28,161 bases of DNA from a virus, in the IMG/VR virus record IMGVR_UViG_3300035698_004409, positions 1 to 28,161 of that record; one strand, written 5' to 3'. How positions within the stretch are numbered: the first letter of the stretch is position 1; each line of letters opens with the position of its first letter. The notes beneath the pieces were generated by a model, which saw nothing but the letters and a program-made list of their open reading frames with translations, searched no databases and was not told the DNA's origin. A program made the translations under genes and the position numbers. Shown piece by piece: positions 146 through 28,161 of this stretch.

Positions 146-369
146 CTGACTGGCAAGAGAAGTATGGCAACAAGATCGTGCAGGGTGACTGCCTCGAGCT
201 CATGGCTGAACTGCCGGACAAGTGCGTCGATTTGGTTAAGACAAACCGCCGCTTCATCGGCATGGAATTATCAGAGGAATACTGCGACATAGCTAATAAA
301 CGCATAGAATACGAGCGGTCGCAAGGTGACTTATTCTTTGATAAGAACAGAGGTGTCGATGACGCCTAA
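142..369 (+). pseudogene. DNA methyltransferase remnant with the catalytic core deleted
   Basis: The 75-residue frame joins the two ends of an N4/N6-type DNA methyltransferase. Residues ~10-33 (IVQGDCLELMAELPDKCVDL) match the usual N-terminal motif that precedes the catalytic DPPY box, and residues ~37-56 (RRFIGMELSEEYCDIANKRI) match the C-terminal motif that follows the FxGxG SAM-binding box. Both DPPY and FxGxG are absent and the joint at about residue 34-36 is in frame, so an estimated 150-200 residues are missing compared with the family. The start has a GAGGGAAGG-like ribosome binding site and an ATGA overlap with the upstream gene; the end overlaps the primase gene start. Methylation activity is not expected. 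It could be a phage deletion, an assembly artefact, or a retained short protein. Confidence 0.75.
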
Positions 370-2833
370 CATACTTTCGAGCCTTAAAAATGTCAAGAAA
401 AACGGCACAGGATGGACCGCTCTATGTCCTGCTCACGAAGACAAGACATCATCGCTCTCTGTTACGATAGGCAGCGACGGGAAAACTCTCTTGTACTGTC
501 ATGCAGGCTGCTCATTCGATGATATCACCGCAGCTCTCGGCATCAAGGTGACTGATCTATTCAACGACGAGAAACCTGCAAAAAAGAAGATCGTGGCAAC
601 GTATGATTATGAAGACATCGACGATAATCTCGTTTATCAGGTCGTGAGATTCGAGCCGAAAGACTTTCGACAACGACGACCTGACGGAAAAGGTGGCTGG
701 ATATGGAAACTTGCAGGGGTCGAGCCTGTTTTGTTTCGACTGGCATCATTAATGAAAGCCATTTCAAACGGGCGTACAGTTTTTATTGTCGAGGGAGAAA
801 AAGACGTGCTGAATCTCGAAAAGCTCGGCTTCAGCGCAACGACGAACTCTGGCGGCGTTAAAAAGTGGCGTGACTCATTCACTCTGCAGCTCGCAAGTTC
901 ACGAGTCGTTCTCATTCCTGACAACGACGTCCCCGGCAAGACTCACATGGCTACTGTCGCGGACAAACTGAGTCGGACTGCACAGCACGTCAGAGTTCTT
1001 CATCTCACGGGCCTCGCGACGAAGCAAGACGTTTCAAACTGGATTGAAACAGGTGGCACAAAGCAAGCCTTGATAGATCTCGTGAAACACTGTCCTGAGT
1101 GGGTACCGGGGCAGCAGCCAGAAGATATCGAAGAGCCTGTCGAGGTACAGACGCCGTTCGACGATGTCGATCTCAGAGACGATGACGATAAGCCGATCAA
1201 ATCAGAGTCACCGAACAAATTACCTTTTCGTCTTCTCGGATATGACGAAACATTTTATTATTATTATTCGTATATCTCGAAGAAAATCGAACGGCTCACG
1301 GGTCCGAATCATCAACGCGGCTCTCTACTCATGCTTGCTCCGATCTCAAAATGGGAGCGCACATTTCCGGGCGGCGGCGATAAAGGTACGAACTGGGTCG
1401 CGGCTGCTAATTATCTGATTCAAACGTCGCACAAGGTCGGTTACTTCAATGACTCACGGCTCAGGGGGTCAGGAGTGTGGCGAGACGACACGAATCCTAT
1501 TCAAGAGGACATCGTGCAGCATCTCGGTAATAAGCTCGTAATCAAGAACAAGAAAGTCGAAATTGAGAAGTATGATTCTCACTACATATACACTGTCGGT
1601 AACGGTATCAAATACGAGAACATCACGCCTGCCGCGACAGCAGACGCACACAAGCTGCTCGAAATTTGCAAGCTCATGAGTTGGGAGAAGTCGATCTCGG
1701 GTCCATTGCTCGCCGGTTGGTGTGTGATTGCTCCGATATGTGGCGCTCTGTCCTGGCGACCTCATATCTGGATCACGGGCGCATCAGGCACGGGCAAGAC
1801 TTGGGTCATCGACAACGTCGTCAAGCCTACGCTCGGCCCGATGCTGCTTTTCGTGCAATCGAACTCGACCGAGGCAGGGATCAGGCAGTCTCTCGGGATC
1901 AACGCTTTTCCAGTGCTTTTCGATGAAGCTGAGGGGGAAGATATTCAGTCACAGAAACGCATTCAGTCGATCATTGAACTCATGCGACAAGCCAGTTCAG
2001 AGACCGGCGCTCCGATCATTAAAGGCTCAACGTCAGGACAGGCCATGTCGTTTCGAGTGCGCTCATGCTTCGCAATGTCGAGCATCGGCGTCAATATCAA
2101 CATGAAGGCTGATGCGTCCCGTATCACGGTCCTGTCGCTCGTCAAGTGTCATCCTCATGATGTCGTTGAACGCTTCGAAGAGATCAAGGCAAAAGTCTAT
2201 TCAACCATATCGGCGGAATATACGTCTGCGATACGGTCACGGACGCTTTCGTTGATACCCACAATACTTTCGAATGCAGCGATTTTTGGGCGCGTCATTG
2301 CCGAGAAGTTTCATGATACGCGGGTCGGCGATCAATTCGGCGCTTTGCTTGCTGGCGCATACTCATTATCGAGCAGTAAAACAATCGACAGCGAGACAGC
2401 CGTCGAATGGGTCGAGAAGCAAGACTGGGAAGCTCAGTCAAGTATTGAAGACCTGCCTGACGAATACAAATGTCTCAATGAGATATTGCAGCATGTGCTC
2501 GTATACACTGTCGATAATAATCGGATCGAGGCGTCTGTCGTTGAGCTGCTATCAGAGACTGATATGTCCTCAGTCGCGAGATTCGCGCTCATGAGGATCG
2601 GGATCAAGACAGTCGATTCAGAAACGAGCAATCTGAATGACAGGACGTTGATTGTGTCTGACTCTCACAAGCATATCAAGCGGATACTGAAGGACACGCC
2701 CTGGGTGAATAATTTCGGGCGCATGATGAAGCGGATCGACAACTCAGAAGTGAAGAAGTCGGAGCGATTTTTTGACAAGACGTATCGCGCAACAGCAATC
2801 CCATTTCGCGCTATATTCACAGGAGGCGAATAA
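359..2833 (+). CDS. Phage primase-helicase (zinc finger, TOPRIM, P-loop ATPase)
   Basis: A protein of 824 residues that probably primes and unwinds DNA at the phage fork. Residues 23-51 hold a CHC2-like zinc site (C23, H26, C47, C51) within text typical of phage primases (CPAHEDKTSS, CHAGC). A TOPRIM nucleotidyl-transfer domain follows, with EGEKD at 145-149 and PDND at 187-190. The C-terminal half has a Walker A motif GASGTGKT at 474-481 and a Walker B-like LFDEAE with D522/E523, resembling DUF927-type phage helicase modules. The middle is acidic and includes a Tyr run from a short TAT repeat. I chose ATG 359 because AGAGGTG precedes it and it overlaps the upstream stop; an in-frame ATG at 326 is the alternative. 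No separate helicase or polymerase gene is visible in the window. Confidence 0.88.
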   Translation: MTPNILSSLKNVKKNGTGWTALCPAHEDKTSSLSVTIGSDGKTLLYCHAGCSFDDITAALGIKVTDLFNDEKPAKKKIVATYDYEDIDDNLVYQVVRFEPKDFRQRRPDGKGGWIWKLAGVEPVLFRLASLMKAISNGRTVFIVEGEKDVLNLEKLGFSATTNSGGVKKWRDSFTLQLASSRVVLIPDNDVPGKTHMATVADKLSRTAQHVRVLHLTGLATKQDVSNWIETGGTKQALIDLVKHCPEWVPGQQPEDIEEPVEVQTPFDDVDLRDDDDKPIKSESPNKLPFRLLGYDETFYYYYSYISKKIERLTGPNHQRGSLLMLAPISKWERTFPGGGDKGTNWVAAANYLIQTSHKVGYFNDSRLRGSGVWRDDTNPIQEDIVQHLGNKLVIKNKKVEIEKYDSHYIYTVGNGIKYENITPAATADAHKLLEICKLMSWEKSISGPLLAGWCVIAPICGALSWRPHIWITGASGTGKTWVIDNVVKPTLGPMLLFVQSNSTEAGIRQSLGINAFPVLFDEAEGEDIQSQKRIQSIIELMRQASSETGAPIIKGSTSGQAMSFRVRSCFAMSSIGVNINMKADASRITVLSLVKCHPHDVVERFEEIKAKVYSTISAEYTSAIRSRTLSLIPTILSNAAIFGRVIAEKFHDTRVGDQFGALLAGAYSLSSSKTIDSETAVEWVEKQDWEAQSSIEDLPDEYKCLNEILQHVLVYTVDNNRIEASVVELLSETDMSSVARFALMRIGIKTVDSETSNLNDRTLIVSDSHKHIKRILKDTPWVNNFGRMMKRIDNSEVKKSERFFDKTYRATAIPFRAIFTGGE

Positions 2834-3191: not shown

Positions 3192-3368
3192 ATGACGCAA
3201 TACGTAGAGCAGCATCGATCCGCGAAACTCACTGAGAAAGACGTCAAAATGATCAGAGAACTTCATCGCGAAGGTGTCCGAAATGTCGATCTCGCCCGAG
3301 TGTTTCATGTGTCGCGAGTCAATATTTCGAATATTATTCGTCGTGTGGCATGGCGGCGAGTCAAATAA
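3192..3368 (+). CDS. Small helix-turn-helix DNA-binding protein
   Basis: A 58-residue basic protein whose sequence is close to the resolvase/Hin-like HTH pattern seen in many small phage regulators: KLTEKDVKMIRELHREGV leads into helix 2 (VDLARVFHV) and recognition helix 3 (SRVNISNIIRRVAWRRV). It is short enough to be only the DNA-binding domain. No strong ribosome binding site precedes the ATG (only AAGAAA-like purines), so expression may be low or coupled to the run upstream. It lies immediately before the gene-free heptamer array at 3457-3778, making it a natural candidate for binding those sites, which is inference only. Confidence 0.75.
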   Translation: MTQYVEQHRSAKLTEKDVKMIRELHREGVRNVDLARVFHVSRVNISNIIRRVAWRRVK

Positions 3369-3456
3369 ATAACCTAATAGCGAAAGTGCTATATTTTATG
3401 TTTTTCGCTCCAGAGACCGTCGAAAACATGCCTTTTATGCCTGTTTTGCACACACT

Positions 3457-3778
3457 GCCTACACTCTGCCTACAAGTTTGCCTACAATCATGTATATGTA
3501 GCGCAACACGTTATGGGCGCTGTAGGCGCTGTAGGCGGATTTTCGCGAAAATAGAGACACTTACTATGATATTTTATATCCGTTATTATCATCAAGAATT
3601 ACAGTGGCTCTCGCTATGTAAGTATAATGTTAAAAACTGCCTACAACTAACAATCTATTTAAGTAAATATATATATATAATAGACTTAGACTGTAGGCAA
3701 ACCTGTAGGCAAGCTGTAGGCAACGTGTGCAAAATGTTCGTAACTGTCAATATATTATAGTGTTATGTGTTGCCTACA
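3457..3778 (+). repeat. Ten-copy GCCTACA/TGTAGGC heptamer array, origin or operator candidate
   Basis: Exact GCCTACA copies begin at 3457, 3468, 3480, 3639 and 3772; exact reverse-complement copies begin at 3521, 3530, 3692, 3704 and 3715. Eight of ten extend to TGCCTACA. A forward trio spaced 11 and 12 bp (3457-3486) mirrors a reverse trio spaced 12 and 11 bp (3692-3721), close to one helical turn, so a protein could bind one DNA face. Between them lies an AT-rich stretch with a TA run at about 3668-3680. The whole stretch 3369-3935 has no convincing gene. Phased iterons beside an AT-rich tract are typical of replication origins; an operator cluster or packaging signal before the terminase is also possible. 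Confidence 0.8.
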
Positions 3779-3810
3779 AGATATTAGGCAAATATTATAA
3801 TTGACAGTTA
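3741..3810. repeat. 11-bp perfect inverted repeat
   Basis: TAACTGTCAAT at 3741-3751 is exactly complementary to ATTGACAGTTA at 3800-3810, with 48 bases between that include the last heptamer copy (3772-3778). The right arm contains a TTGACA hexamer. The arms could bind a dimeric regulator or form a cruciform beside the array. Confidence 0.6.
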
Positions 3811-3828
3811 AGGGAATTAATGTATTTT
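3801..3828 (+). promoter_or_regulatory. Sigma70-like promoter candidate before the terminase genes
   Basis: A consensus -35 hexamer TTGACA (3801-3806) is followed after 16 bases by TATTTT (3823-3828), a weak -10 box in AT-rich DNA. It lies about 110 bases before the small terminase start and would drive the packaging and structural genes. The -10 match is imperfect, so this is moderate to weak evidence. Confidence 0.4.
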
Positions 3829-3935: not shown

Positions 3936-4430
3936 GTGCGAAAAGCAAAGAAGAAAAGAGCAGGAAGACCGAATCATTACGACACTCTCGTTGAGCCACG
4001 GCTTGAAGAAATTGGATGGTGGGCAAGAGAAGGTCTCTGCGATGAAGAGATATGGACAAGACTCGGGATTAGCAAGCGTTCGCTATATAAATATAAAGCG
4101 CAATATTCGCAATTCAAACACGCCTTAAAGACGAATAAAGCCGTTGCTAACTATCGAATGGTTGACTCACTATATAAACTCGGAATGGGATTTACTGTCA
4201 CGGATGTAACGCAAGAGTATGAATATACTGAGGTTGAGAATGCACCAAGAAAGAAGAAGCTCGTTTCATCGAAGCGCACTCGCAAGCACATTCTACCGAG
4301 CGTCGCGGCTATCGTCGTATATCTCAAGAACTGTGCTGGCTGGCATAATTCTGATCGCGGCACTATCGACAACGATACAGGCAAGCTCGACGATCTTATC
4401 TCAGCCATTAAGAACACGAAGCGAGACTGA
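3936..4430 (+). CDS. terS: Small terminase subunit
   Basis: This 164-residue protein would recognise phage DNA and recruit the large terminase for packaging. A basic N-terminus (RKAKKKRAGR) is followed by a helix-turn-helix around residues 35-56 (DEEIWTRLGISKRSLYKYKA), the usual DNA-binding part of small terminases. The C-terminal part (residues ~118-140, with ILPSVAAIVVYLKNCAGWHN) resembles the conserved 'P-x-x-x-A-x-x-x-W/Y-L-K-N-R' segment of the family. The start is GTG 3936 with AGGGA at 3923-3927; an ATG two bases upstream is in another frame. The gene ends one base before the large subunit start, as expected for a terS-terL pair. Confidence 0.8.
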   Translation: MRKAKKKRAGRPNHYDTLVEPRLEEIGWWAREGLCDEEIWTRLGISKRSLYKYKAQYSQFKHALKTNKAVANYRMVDSLYKLGMGFTVTDVTQEYEYTEVENAPRKKKLVSSKRTRKHILPSVAAIVVYLKNCAGWHNSDRGTIDNDTGKLDDLISAIKNTKRD

Positions 4431-4431
4431 T

Positions 4432-5733
4432 ATGGAATGGCAGACCTTCGGGCGCAAAGCCATCGCATTCATCGACACGCCTATCAAGGACGACGCGAGG
4501 ATCACAGTTCTTGAAGGTTCAGTCCGATCAGGCAAGACGATTGCTGTTCTCCCGAAGTGGCTCACATATATCAAAGAGGGACCGCCAGGGCTGCTTGCTA
4601 TCACAGGTAAGAGCAAAGGCACAATATTCGATAATGTTCTTCGTGATATGTTTGACACGGTCGGAAAAAGGAACTACAGCTACAATCGACAATCAGGCGA
4701 CTTGGTCGTGTTCGGTCGAGAGATGAAAGTCATCGGCGCGAAGGACGAAGGGTCCGAAGAGTATCTACGTGGCAAGACGCTCGCAGGCGCTCTGTGTGAC
4801 GAGTTGACGACTATGCCTGAGTCTTTCTTCTTGCAGCTCTTGAATCGCCTCAGTGTCGAAGGATCGAAGTTGTATGGCACGACGAATCCTGATTCCCCGT
4901 ATCACTATCTCTTTCTTGATTACATCACAGACATCGACAAGCTGAAGTCTGGCATGGTCAAGGCTCTACACTTTGAGCTGGATGACAATCCATCGCTATC
5001 AGAAGAGTACAAGACATTTATCAGGGGCGCATACTCAGGCTTGTGGTATCAGCGAAACATTCTTGGTCTGTGGGTCCTTGCAGAAGGCGCGATATACGAC
5101 ATGTTCAGCGAGGATCGACACGTCGTCACGAGAGATCAGCTTCCGAAGGTATTTGACAAGAACTTGATCGGCATCGATTACGGCACTGCGAATCCGACAG
5201 TATTCATGAAATCAGGCATCACGAATCACAAAAACAGACCGCCTACGTTTTGGCATAGAGAGGAATACTATCACGACAGCAAGAAGACCGGTCACAGCAA
5301 GACGACATCTCAGTATAAGCGTGATCTGGTTGAGTTCATGGGAGGCAGATACGACAAGAGAAAACAGCTCATTCAGCAACCTGATCCATATAAGATATAT
5401 GTCGATCCATCTGCGCTGCCACTAATCACTGAGCTGCGGTCGACGTCGTGCGGGATATCTCTCACGAAGTACGTACGCAAGGGCCGGAACGAAGTGTCTG
5501 CCGGGATCAACTCAGTCGCGACGCTCATGTCACTCGGCAGGTATAAAATATGCAAAGAGACGTGCCCGAATTGCGTGAAAGAAACGACTGCGTACCTTTG
5601 GGACCCGAAGAAACAGAAAATTGGCGAGGACTCACCGATTAAATCTCATGATCACACGAAAGACGCTGAACGATATGAAATACATTCAGAGCTACCTGCG
5701 ACCAAGGTGCTGATGTCATACGCAGCAAATTAA
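4432..5733 (+). CDS. terL: Large terminase subunit, PBSX-type
   Basis: A packaging motor of 433 residues with ATPase and nuclease domains. The Walker A region EGSVRSGKT (28-36) is characteristic of the PBSX-type terminases; the acidic pair CDELTTMPE (D123, E124) fits Walker B plus the catalytic Glu. The nuclease half has IGIDYGTANP (D249), VDPSA (D325) and SHDHTKDAERY (D407, H408, D411), positioned like the metal-binding acids of the RNase H-like fold. ATG 4432 gives the family-typical start; the longer upstream frame merely overlaps the small subunit. The ribosome binding site is weak, so coupling to the small subunit is likely. The packaging mode (cos or headful) cannot be decided. Confidence 0.92.
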   Translation: MEWQTFGRKAIAFIDTPIKDDARITVLEGSVRSGKTIAVLPKWLTYIKEGPPGLLAITGKSKGTIFDNVLRDMFDTVGKRNYSYNRQSGDLVVFGREMKVIGAKDEGSEEYLRGKTLAGALCDELTTMPESFFLQLLNRLSVEGSKLYGTTNPDSPYHYLFLDYITDIDKLKSGMVKALHFELDDNPSLSEEYKTFIRGAYSGLWYQRNILGLWVLAEGAIYDMFSEDRHVVTRDQLPKVFDKNLIGIDYGTANPTVFMKSGITNHKNRPPTFWHREEYYHDSKKTGHSKTTSQYKRDLVEFMGGRYDKRKQLIQQPDPYKIYVDPSALPLITELRSTSCGISLTKYVRKGRNEVSAGINSVATLMSLGRYKICKETCPNCVKETTAYLWDPKKQKIGEDSPIKSHDHTKDAERYEIHSELPATKVLMSYAAN

Positions 5734-27945: not shown

Positions 27946-28161
27946 ATGAGAGAACTAACTGAATCCGAAAAGACAGTAATTAATGATCATGCAAATTGGA
28001 TTAAAGACAGAAGTGGCTTCCGTGCCAACCTGAGGGGTTCCAACTTGACTGATGCCAACTTGAGGGGTTACGACTTGACTGATGCCGACTTGAGGAATGC
28101 CTACTTGACTGGTGCCGACTTGACTGATGCCAACTTGAGGAATGCCTACTTGACTGATGCC
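27946..28161 (+). CDS. Pentapeptide-repeat protein, 3' end outside the window
   Basis: After a 25-residue lead ([20 protein letters not shown]...) the frame enters pentapeptide repeats of the A(D/N)Lxx type: nine units are visible ([45 protein letters not shown]) before the window edge. The DNA shows a matching 15-bp period. Such repeats fold into a right-handed beta helix; known members mimic DNA and protect or inhibit gyrase (Qnr, MfpA), but most have no known role. AGGAG precedes ATG 27946. It stands beyond the late terminator with its own promoter-like sequence, like a moron gene. The length and any partner domain cannot be seen. Confidence 0.85.

Follow-up and report, generated by a model that had tools for sequence, protein, structure and literature searches.

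What does a dense, symmetric cluster of short repeats do in a tailed phage, in the DNA that separates the primase-helicase gene from the terminase genes? The cluster was found in the window, by which we mean the whole stretch of 28,161 nucleotides that was analysed. An earlier note, made from the letters alone, had described ten exact heptamers in gene-free, AT-rich DNA, and had offered a replication origin, a regulatory switch or a packaging site as explanations.

The heptamer array and its gene neighbourhood

We counted the heptamer GCCTACA and found ten exact copies within 322 bp (3457-3778), the same number as in the earlier note. They start at 3457, 3468, 3480, 3639 and 3772 on the plus strand and at 3521, 3530, 3692, 3704 and 3715 on the minus strand. 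Written in order, with the larger gaps in brackets, the array reads + + + (41) - - (109) + (53) - - - (57) +. The whole window contains 15 copies, compared with 1.5 expected from shuffled sequences. Only five scattered copies, all on the plus strand, lie outside the array, so the heptamer is not equally frequent elsewhere, and no second cluster was found elsewhere in the window, which is a genome fragment. In 30 first-order Markov simulations the best heptamer reached 4 copies per 322 bp, and unrelated heptamers of the window itself reached at most 5.

The outer trios mirror each other with spacings of 11, 12 and 12, 11, exactly as had been noted before. Both are taken in by a 46-nt inverted repeat with 85% complementarity, which reaches past the heptamers into TTTTGCACAC (at 3444) on one side and GTGTGCAAAA on the other (Table 1). 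The centre of the inner copies at 3530 (minus) and 3639 (plus) falls at 3587.5, within 2 bp of the dyad centre of this repeat. The core has an AT content of 0.70 and the stretch 3646-3691 one of 0.83, compared with 0.51 in the whole window, which bears out the AT-rich core of the earlier note. Its description of the region as gene-free is reasonable, yet one ORF of 136 aa (3350-3760), which has no PHROG match, spans the array. Each outer end of the inverted repeat also carries one GTGTGCA (3447-3453 and 3725-3731), the iteron of the sister phage L084; these copies may represent a remnant of a former iteron or an additional site, or they may be due to chance.

Genes are arranged in the order primase-helicase, small ORFs, 58-aa HTH gene, array, small (TerS) and large (TerL) terminase subunits, portal, major capsid and tape measure. 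The large terminase, major capsid and tape-measure proteins were recognised with Pfam and the portal with PHROG. The array starts 624 bp behind the primase-helicase gene, with small ORFs intervening. The primase-helicase consists of an N-terminal CHC2 zinc ribbon with a TOPRIM domain (weak Pfam matches to Zn_ribbon_DnaG and Toprim), a RecA/AAA-like helicase core and a C-terminal domain of about 150 aa (residues about 685-835). Its best INPHARED matches are only about 30-38% identical, and the large terminase did not lead to any close relatives.

Rfam and tRNA scans were empty, and no DnaA boxes (TTATNCACA) were found within the window. The GC skew is flat with no change at the array; as almost all genes lie on the same strand, this result is uninformative. 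Two further ORFs were noted at the ends of the record. The ORF at 118-369 resembles two DNA methyltransferase ends joined with the middle missing (IVQGDCLELMAELPDKCVDLV is soon followed by RRFIGMELSEEYCDIANKRI), and by inspection looks like a deletion remnant; similar pieces occur at several places in the relative L083. The ORF at 27947-28161 runs off the end of the record, contains repeats such as GATGCCNACTTGAC, and was read by inspection as a pentapeptide-repeat protein.

Table 1. Features of the array and of the genes around it (window coordinates)
Feature	Position	Strand	Remarks
Source DNA			IMG/VR record, 28-kb linear fragment of a tailed-phage genome
Primase-helicase gene	326..2833	+	PHROG 35358 DNA primase, E 1e-110
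58-aa HTH protein gene	3192..3368	+	PHROG 517 HTH; between primase and array
Left arm of 46-nt inverted repeat	3444..3489	+	dyad centre ~3589
Outer left GCCTACA trio	3457..3486	+	spacing 11, 12; points inward
Inner left GCCTACA pair	3521..3536	-	9 bp apart; points away from core
AT-rich core	3537..3638		~70% AT; between the two iteron sets
Inner right GCCTACA	3639..3645	+	109 bp from inner left pair; points away from core
83% AT stretch with (TA)n run	3646..3691		separates inner from outer right iterons
Right arm of inverted repeat	3689..3734	-	outer end GTGTGCAAAA mirrors TTTTGCACAC
Outer right GCCTACA trio	3692..3721	-	spacing 12, 11; points inward
Lone outer GCCTACA	3772..3778	+	from the heptamer count
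Terminase small subunit gene	3936..4430	+	PHROG 309
Terminase large subunit gene	4432..5730	+	Pfam Terminase_6N, E 5e-11; PHROG 10250 and 2

Arrays behind the primase-helicase gene in relatives

We aligned the window primase-helicase with seven INPHARED relatives and used this alignment to collect 80 IMG/VR loci. In a strict count on dereplicated loci, a cluster was defined as one heptamer present five or more times within 800 bp. Behind the gene, 17 of 54 loci have such a cluster, compared with 1 of 48 upstream stretches and 8 of 373 from elsewhere. A more tolerant score allowed one mismatch and expressed clustering in the 420 bp behind the gene as z against shuffled sequence; for the window itself, the stretch scored was placed on the array. 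Clusters with z>3 were found downstream in 26 of 58 lineages, upstream in 1 of 53 and in 2 of 56 control stretches. About half of the lineages have no significant cluster in the 420 bp behind the primase. The array stands 1.7-3.9 kb further on from the primase gene in L083, L085, L119 and L127, and on the other side of the gene in L066.

In most loci with an array behind the gene, it begins 2-50 bp past the primase stop codon. Cultured phages are among them: Bdellovibrio phage phi1422 has 11 copies of GGTAACA, the first of them 10 bp behind the primase, and the array heptamers of Pararheinheimera phage KLER1-1 and Acinetobacter phage Acjo_20 are GCTTACA and TGTAACA, respectively. Conservation of the heptamer in relatives, which the earlier note had asked about, is found only in part: the heptamer itself varies, and the array, its place and its geometry are kept. 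Judged by these sequence comparisons, the presence of an array is linked to the primase-helicase gene and not to any one type of terminase.

These comparisons bear on the two other functions considered in the earlier note. The first is a transcriptional operator, at which a repressor or activator such as the 58-aa HTH protein would switch from the early genes to the late terminase and structural operon. The array lies between an early gene and the late operon, and a promoter-like TTGACA-16-TATTTT lies at 3801-3828, but the region contains six such elements against a shuffled mean of 4.3. However, in relatives the array sits behind the primase regardless of its neighbour, be it a lambda-type terminase (PHROG 15), a PHROG 2 terminase or none that was recognised close by. 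A set of ten sites that extends over 322 bp and has an AT-rich core between them would also be unusual for an operator. No homologue of the HTH gene was found among the 87 primase loci; the gene is not conserved with the arrays, so its product is an unlikely general reader of them, and the partner proposed in the earlier note is not borne out. We therefore regard an operator bound by this protein as disfavoured, and an operator in general as improbable. The two functions are not exclusive, and an origin here may also control the promoter-like site at 3801.

A packaging site (pac or cos), to which the small terminase subunit would bind, is less probable still. The array stands directly upstream of TerS and TerL in the window, and a terminase also follows the arrays of several relatives. 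But the arrays track the primase: the terminase families differ among array loci (PHROG 10250/2, 3717 and 15) while the primase family is constant, and in phi1422 the 4.7 kb behind the array contain no annotated terminase. Because of these differences, and because the equivalent repeats of phage P4 are annotated as ori and crr, we disfavour packaging.

The candidate initiator and known origins

The P4 record served as a positive control. It annotates 'ori type 1 repeats' in both ori and crr, and crr lies directly behind the gene of the alpha primase. The blind scan used for the relatives, run on the DNA behind alpha, returned GTGAACA in seven copies, which is the core of the type 1 repeats. 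Both GTGAACA and GCCTACA fit GNNNACA, and both occur in the two orientations behind a primase gene. The same pattern is found behind the primase-helicase of relatives (GGTAACA, GCTGACA, GTCAACA, GTTTACA). P4 differs from the window in that it is a satellite, in that its ori is annotated on the other side of the alpha gene, some 2 kb away from it, and in that crr is a 120-bp direct repeat, whereas the window has a single dyad-symmetric array. P4 needs both ori and crr.

Among the explanations in the earlier note, the primase-linked comparison and the P4 control thus favour the replication origin over the switch and the packaging site. We consider it very probable that the array is the origin of replication of this tailed phage, and that it works like those of P4 and the SaPIs. 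GCCTACA would be the iteron, and the primase-helicase of the phage itself would read it, probably by means of the C-terminal domain. Two iteron sets flank the AT-rich core with dyad symmetry, and one helicase ring would assemble on each set. The core would then melt, and the two rings would load on opposite strands and depart in opposite directions, while the zinc-ribbon/TOPRIM half would lay the primers. Replication would be bidirectional.

To examine the candidate initiator, residues 261-835 of the primase-helicase were modelled with AlphaFold2 (pLDDT 89) and compared by Foldseek. The best match was SCCmec Cch (5dgk), followed by the primase-helicases of phage NrS-1 and SaPI5 (7ola) and by poxvirus D5/E5. 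The matches to 5dgk, 7ola and 8xj8 have E below 1e-6 and TM-scores of 0.3-0.5, which indicate similarity at the level of the fold; no sequence match for the protein was found in the PDB. By the fold of the model, the candidate initiator is predicted to be a self-loading helicase of the Cch/Rep/D5 type, and SCCmec Cch and the SaPI5 primase-helicase are relatives of iteron-binding initiators. The C-terminal domain is conserved and compact (pLDDT 93 in the model), and is probably the part that reads the iteron. Compared alone with the PDB, it gave no significant match to a known DNA-binding fold; its best weak match, a relaxosome accessory protein with oriT DNA (prob 0.5), was not accepted.

In PICIs, the origin directly follows the 3' end of the initiator gene, and two iteron sets around an AT-rich region are always present (PMC6092414). 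The window shares the two sets of short iterons (3457-3536 and 3639-3778) around an AT-rich region. Its array lies 3' of the presumed initiator gene, at a distance of 624 bp and with small ORFs between. The initiator of PICIs and SaPIs is a self-loading helicase (PMC6092414, PMC7581432). The SCCmec Cch and SaPI5 proteins are, moreover, among the best fold matches of the window protein. However, the window comes from a tailed phage, which encodes terminase, portal, capsid and tape-measure proteins itself, and not from a satellite; the primase-helicase falls in another sequence family, and the iterons differ. An origin in the window would extend to whole phages an organisation described as confined to satellite islands (PMC6092414).

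SV40 and papillomavirus origins offer an analogy, as they also have clustered short sites where two helicase rings assemble. The initiators there are SF3 helicases, and the comparison of initiators was drawn in PMC7581432. In contrast to the N-terminal origin-binding domain used by the viral initiators, the window protein has an N-terminal TOPRIM primase and a separate C-terminal domain. Iteron plasmids of the Rep_3 type likewise have clustered iterons at the origin, but Rep_3 proteins are not helicases. In a Hymenobacter contig (L195:6768-7297), iterons of the octamer TGCCTACA with a spacing of about 22 bp adjoin a Rep_3 plasmid initiator gene; these repeats are direct, lie on one side and lack the mirrored layout.

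Plasmid iteron arrays also serve partition and copy control, and in two related phages genes for ParB-like nucleases are found close to the primase. A parS-like partition site, or a plasmid-style incompatibility site of a plasmid-prophage, could be imagined on these grounds. However, the window proteins examined included no recognisable ParA or ParB, and it is the initiator gene, not par genes, that the arrays accompany, so we give this reading slightly less weight than packaging.

Changing heptamers and a recurring layout

The heptamers of the arrays include GCCTACA, GGTAACA, GCTGACA, GTCAACA, GTTTGCA, GTCTGCA and GTGTGCA, further GCATACA, GTTTACA, GTTGACA, GGTTACA, CGTTACA and CGTGACA, and others. 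Most of them end in (A/G)CA. When array heptamers were chosen without bias, a CA ending on one strand was found in 12.5 of 17, compared with 4.7 of 47 control clusters.

The layout recurs as well. The widest gap of the array has a minus copy on its left and a plus copy on its right in 13 of 24 arrays (about 1/4 expected by chance), and 11 of these 13 gaps measure 78-109 bp. In the 24 arrays compared, the core is usually AT-richer than the genome. A tight pair of minus copies, 8-9 bp apart, often stands left of the core in relatives, and L117, L119, L127 and L156 have an opposite copy about 50-60 bp further on. This sequence evidence for a common layout is strong but not exact, because TGTAACA is nearly a palindrome, which leaves its orientation ambiguous, and because the arrays are not entirely independent of one another.

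The heptamer changes even between close relatives. The nearest ones (L083-L085, primase 46% identical) have other heptamers, and a terminase gene still follows the array: in L084, the GTGTGCA array is followed by a homologous TerS, and in L083 and L085 the terminase behind the TGTAACA arrays belongs to a different family. Among primases that share 84% or more identity over their last 575 aa, the iteron is GTTTGCA, GTATGCA or GCATACA. Since near-identical primases are found with three iterons, all iteron copies of an array must have changed together. These loci (L101/L125/L105/L102/L100/L114, L130 and L103/L104) form a natural specificity-switch set, and such near-identical initiators with different iterons are natural pairs for learning how an initiator reads DNA. 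In one close group, residues M789-D790 versus E789-N790 track base 3 of the iteron (T versus A); the correlation fails in other lineages, so these residues are a lead only.

We lean, with little more than even confidence, towards a general origin plan shared by tailed phages whose primase-helicase belongs to this family; under it, every iteron copy would switch specificity along with the initiator. The plan would comprise an inner pair of minus copies, an AT-rich core of about 80-110 bp, an inner plus copy and outer sets. Such a recurring plan with changing iterons in full phages was not described in the open-access papers found. If it is true, origin words diversify quickly, phages of this kind are mutually non-interfering replicons, and the origin code of a phage can be read from its sequence. 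For many tailed phages with their own primase-helicase, we offer a simple rule for finding the origin: behind the primase-helicase gene, look for a heptamer that ends in (A/G)CA and whose copies, on both strands, cluster around an AT-rich core.

A chance or selfish (MITE-like) inverted repeat without a phage role is the least credible explanation, because position and plan outlive the sequence: the 46-nt inverted repeat with its 199-bp interior superficially resembles a small inverted-repeat element, and TGCCTACA arrays are found in Prevotella intergenic DNA, but in relatives an array of similar geometry, made of another heptamer, is kept behind the same gene, a mobile repeat would retain its sequence and lose its position, and no target-site duplication was seen by eye.

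The case for an origin rests on the primase-linked comparison and not on the octamer TGCCTACA. We rejected the 54 contigs with three TGCCTACA copies as proof of a widespread element, since a composition-matched control octamer gives 52, mostly inside ORFs. No ORF of 100 aa lies across the copies in 29 of 54 contigs for TGCCTACA, compared with 6 of 52 for ACCTGCAT and 1 of 13 for the reversed octamer, and opposite-strand copies occur in 13 of 54, 1 of 52 and 1 of 13, respectively. The finding of primase-helicase profiles at 18 of the 54 loci was not relied on; the count is biased, as the profiles were partly built from loci found with TGCCTACA. A full-text literature search for the octamer gave only unrelated matches among the matches listed.

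In unrelated IMG/VR contigs, TGCCTACA arrays are also found next to a D5-type helicase and to primase-helicases of two other types; several of these arrays lie between primase and terminase. Arrays of mixed orientation are also found between chromosomal housekeeping genes of Prevotella, and the octamer alone therefore does not prove an origin. Specifically, TGCCTACA arrays in both orientations were seen in Prevotella and other bacterial contigs (L169, L176, L188, L204, L206, L225 and L228), many with a spacing of 9-11 bp and opposite sets about 40-60 bp apart; those of L188 and L225 have housekeeping neighbours (epimerase, greA). The reversed control octamer matched TTGAACATCCG-type arrays in L070, L078, L080 and L081, which contain TGAACA, a P4-like ending, and may be further iteron arrays.
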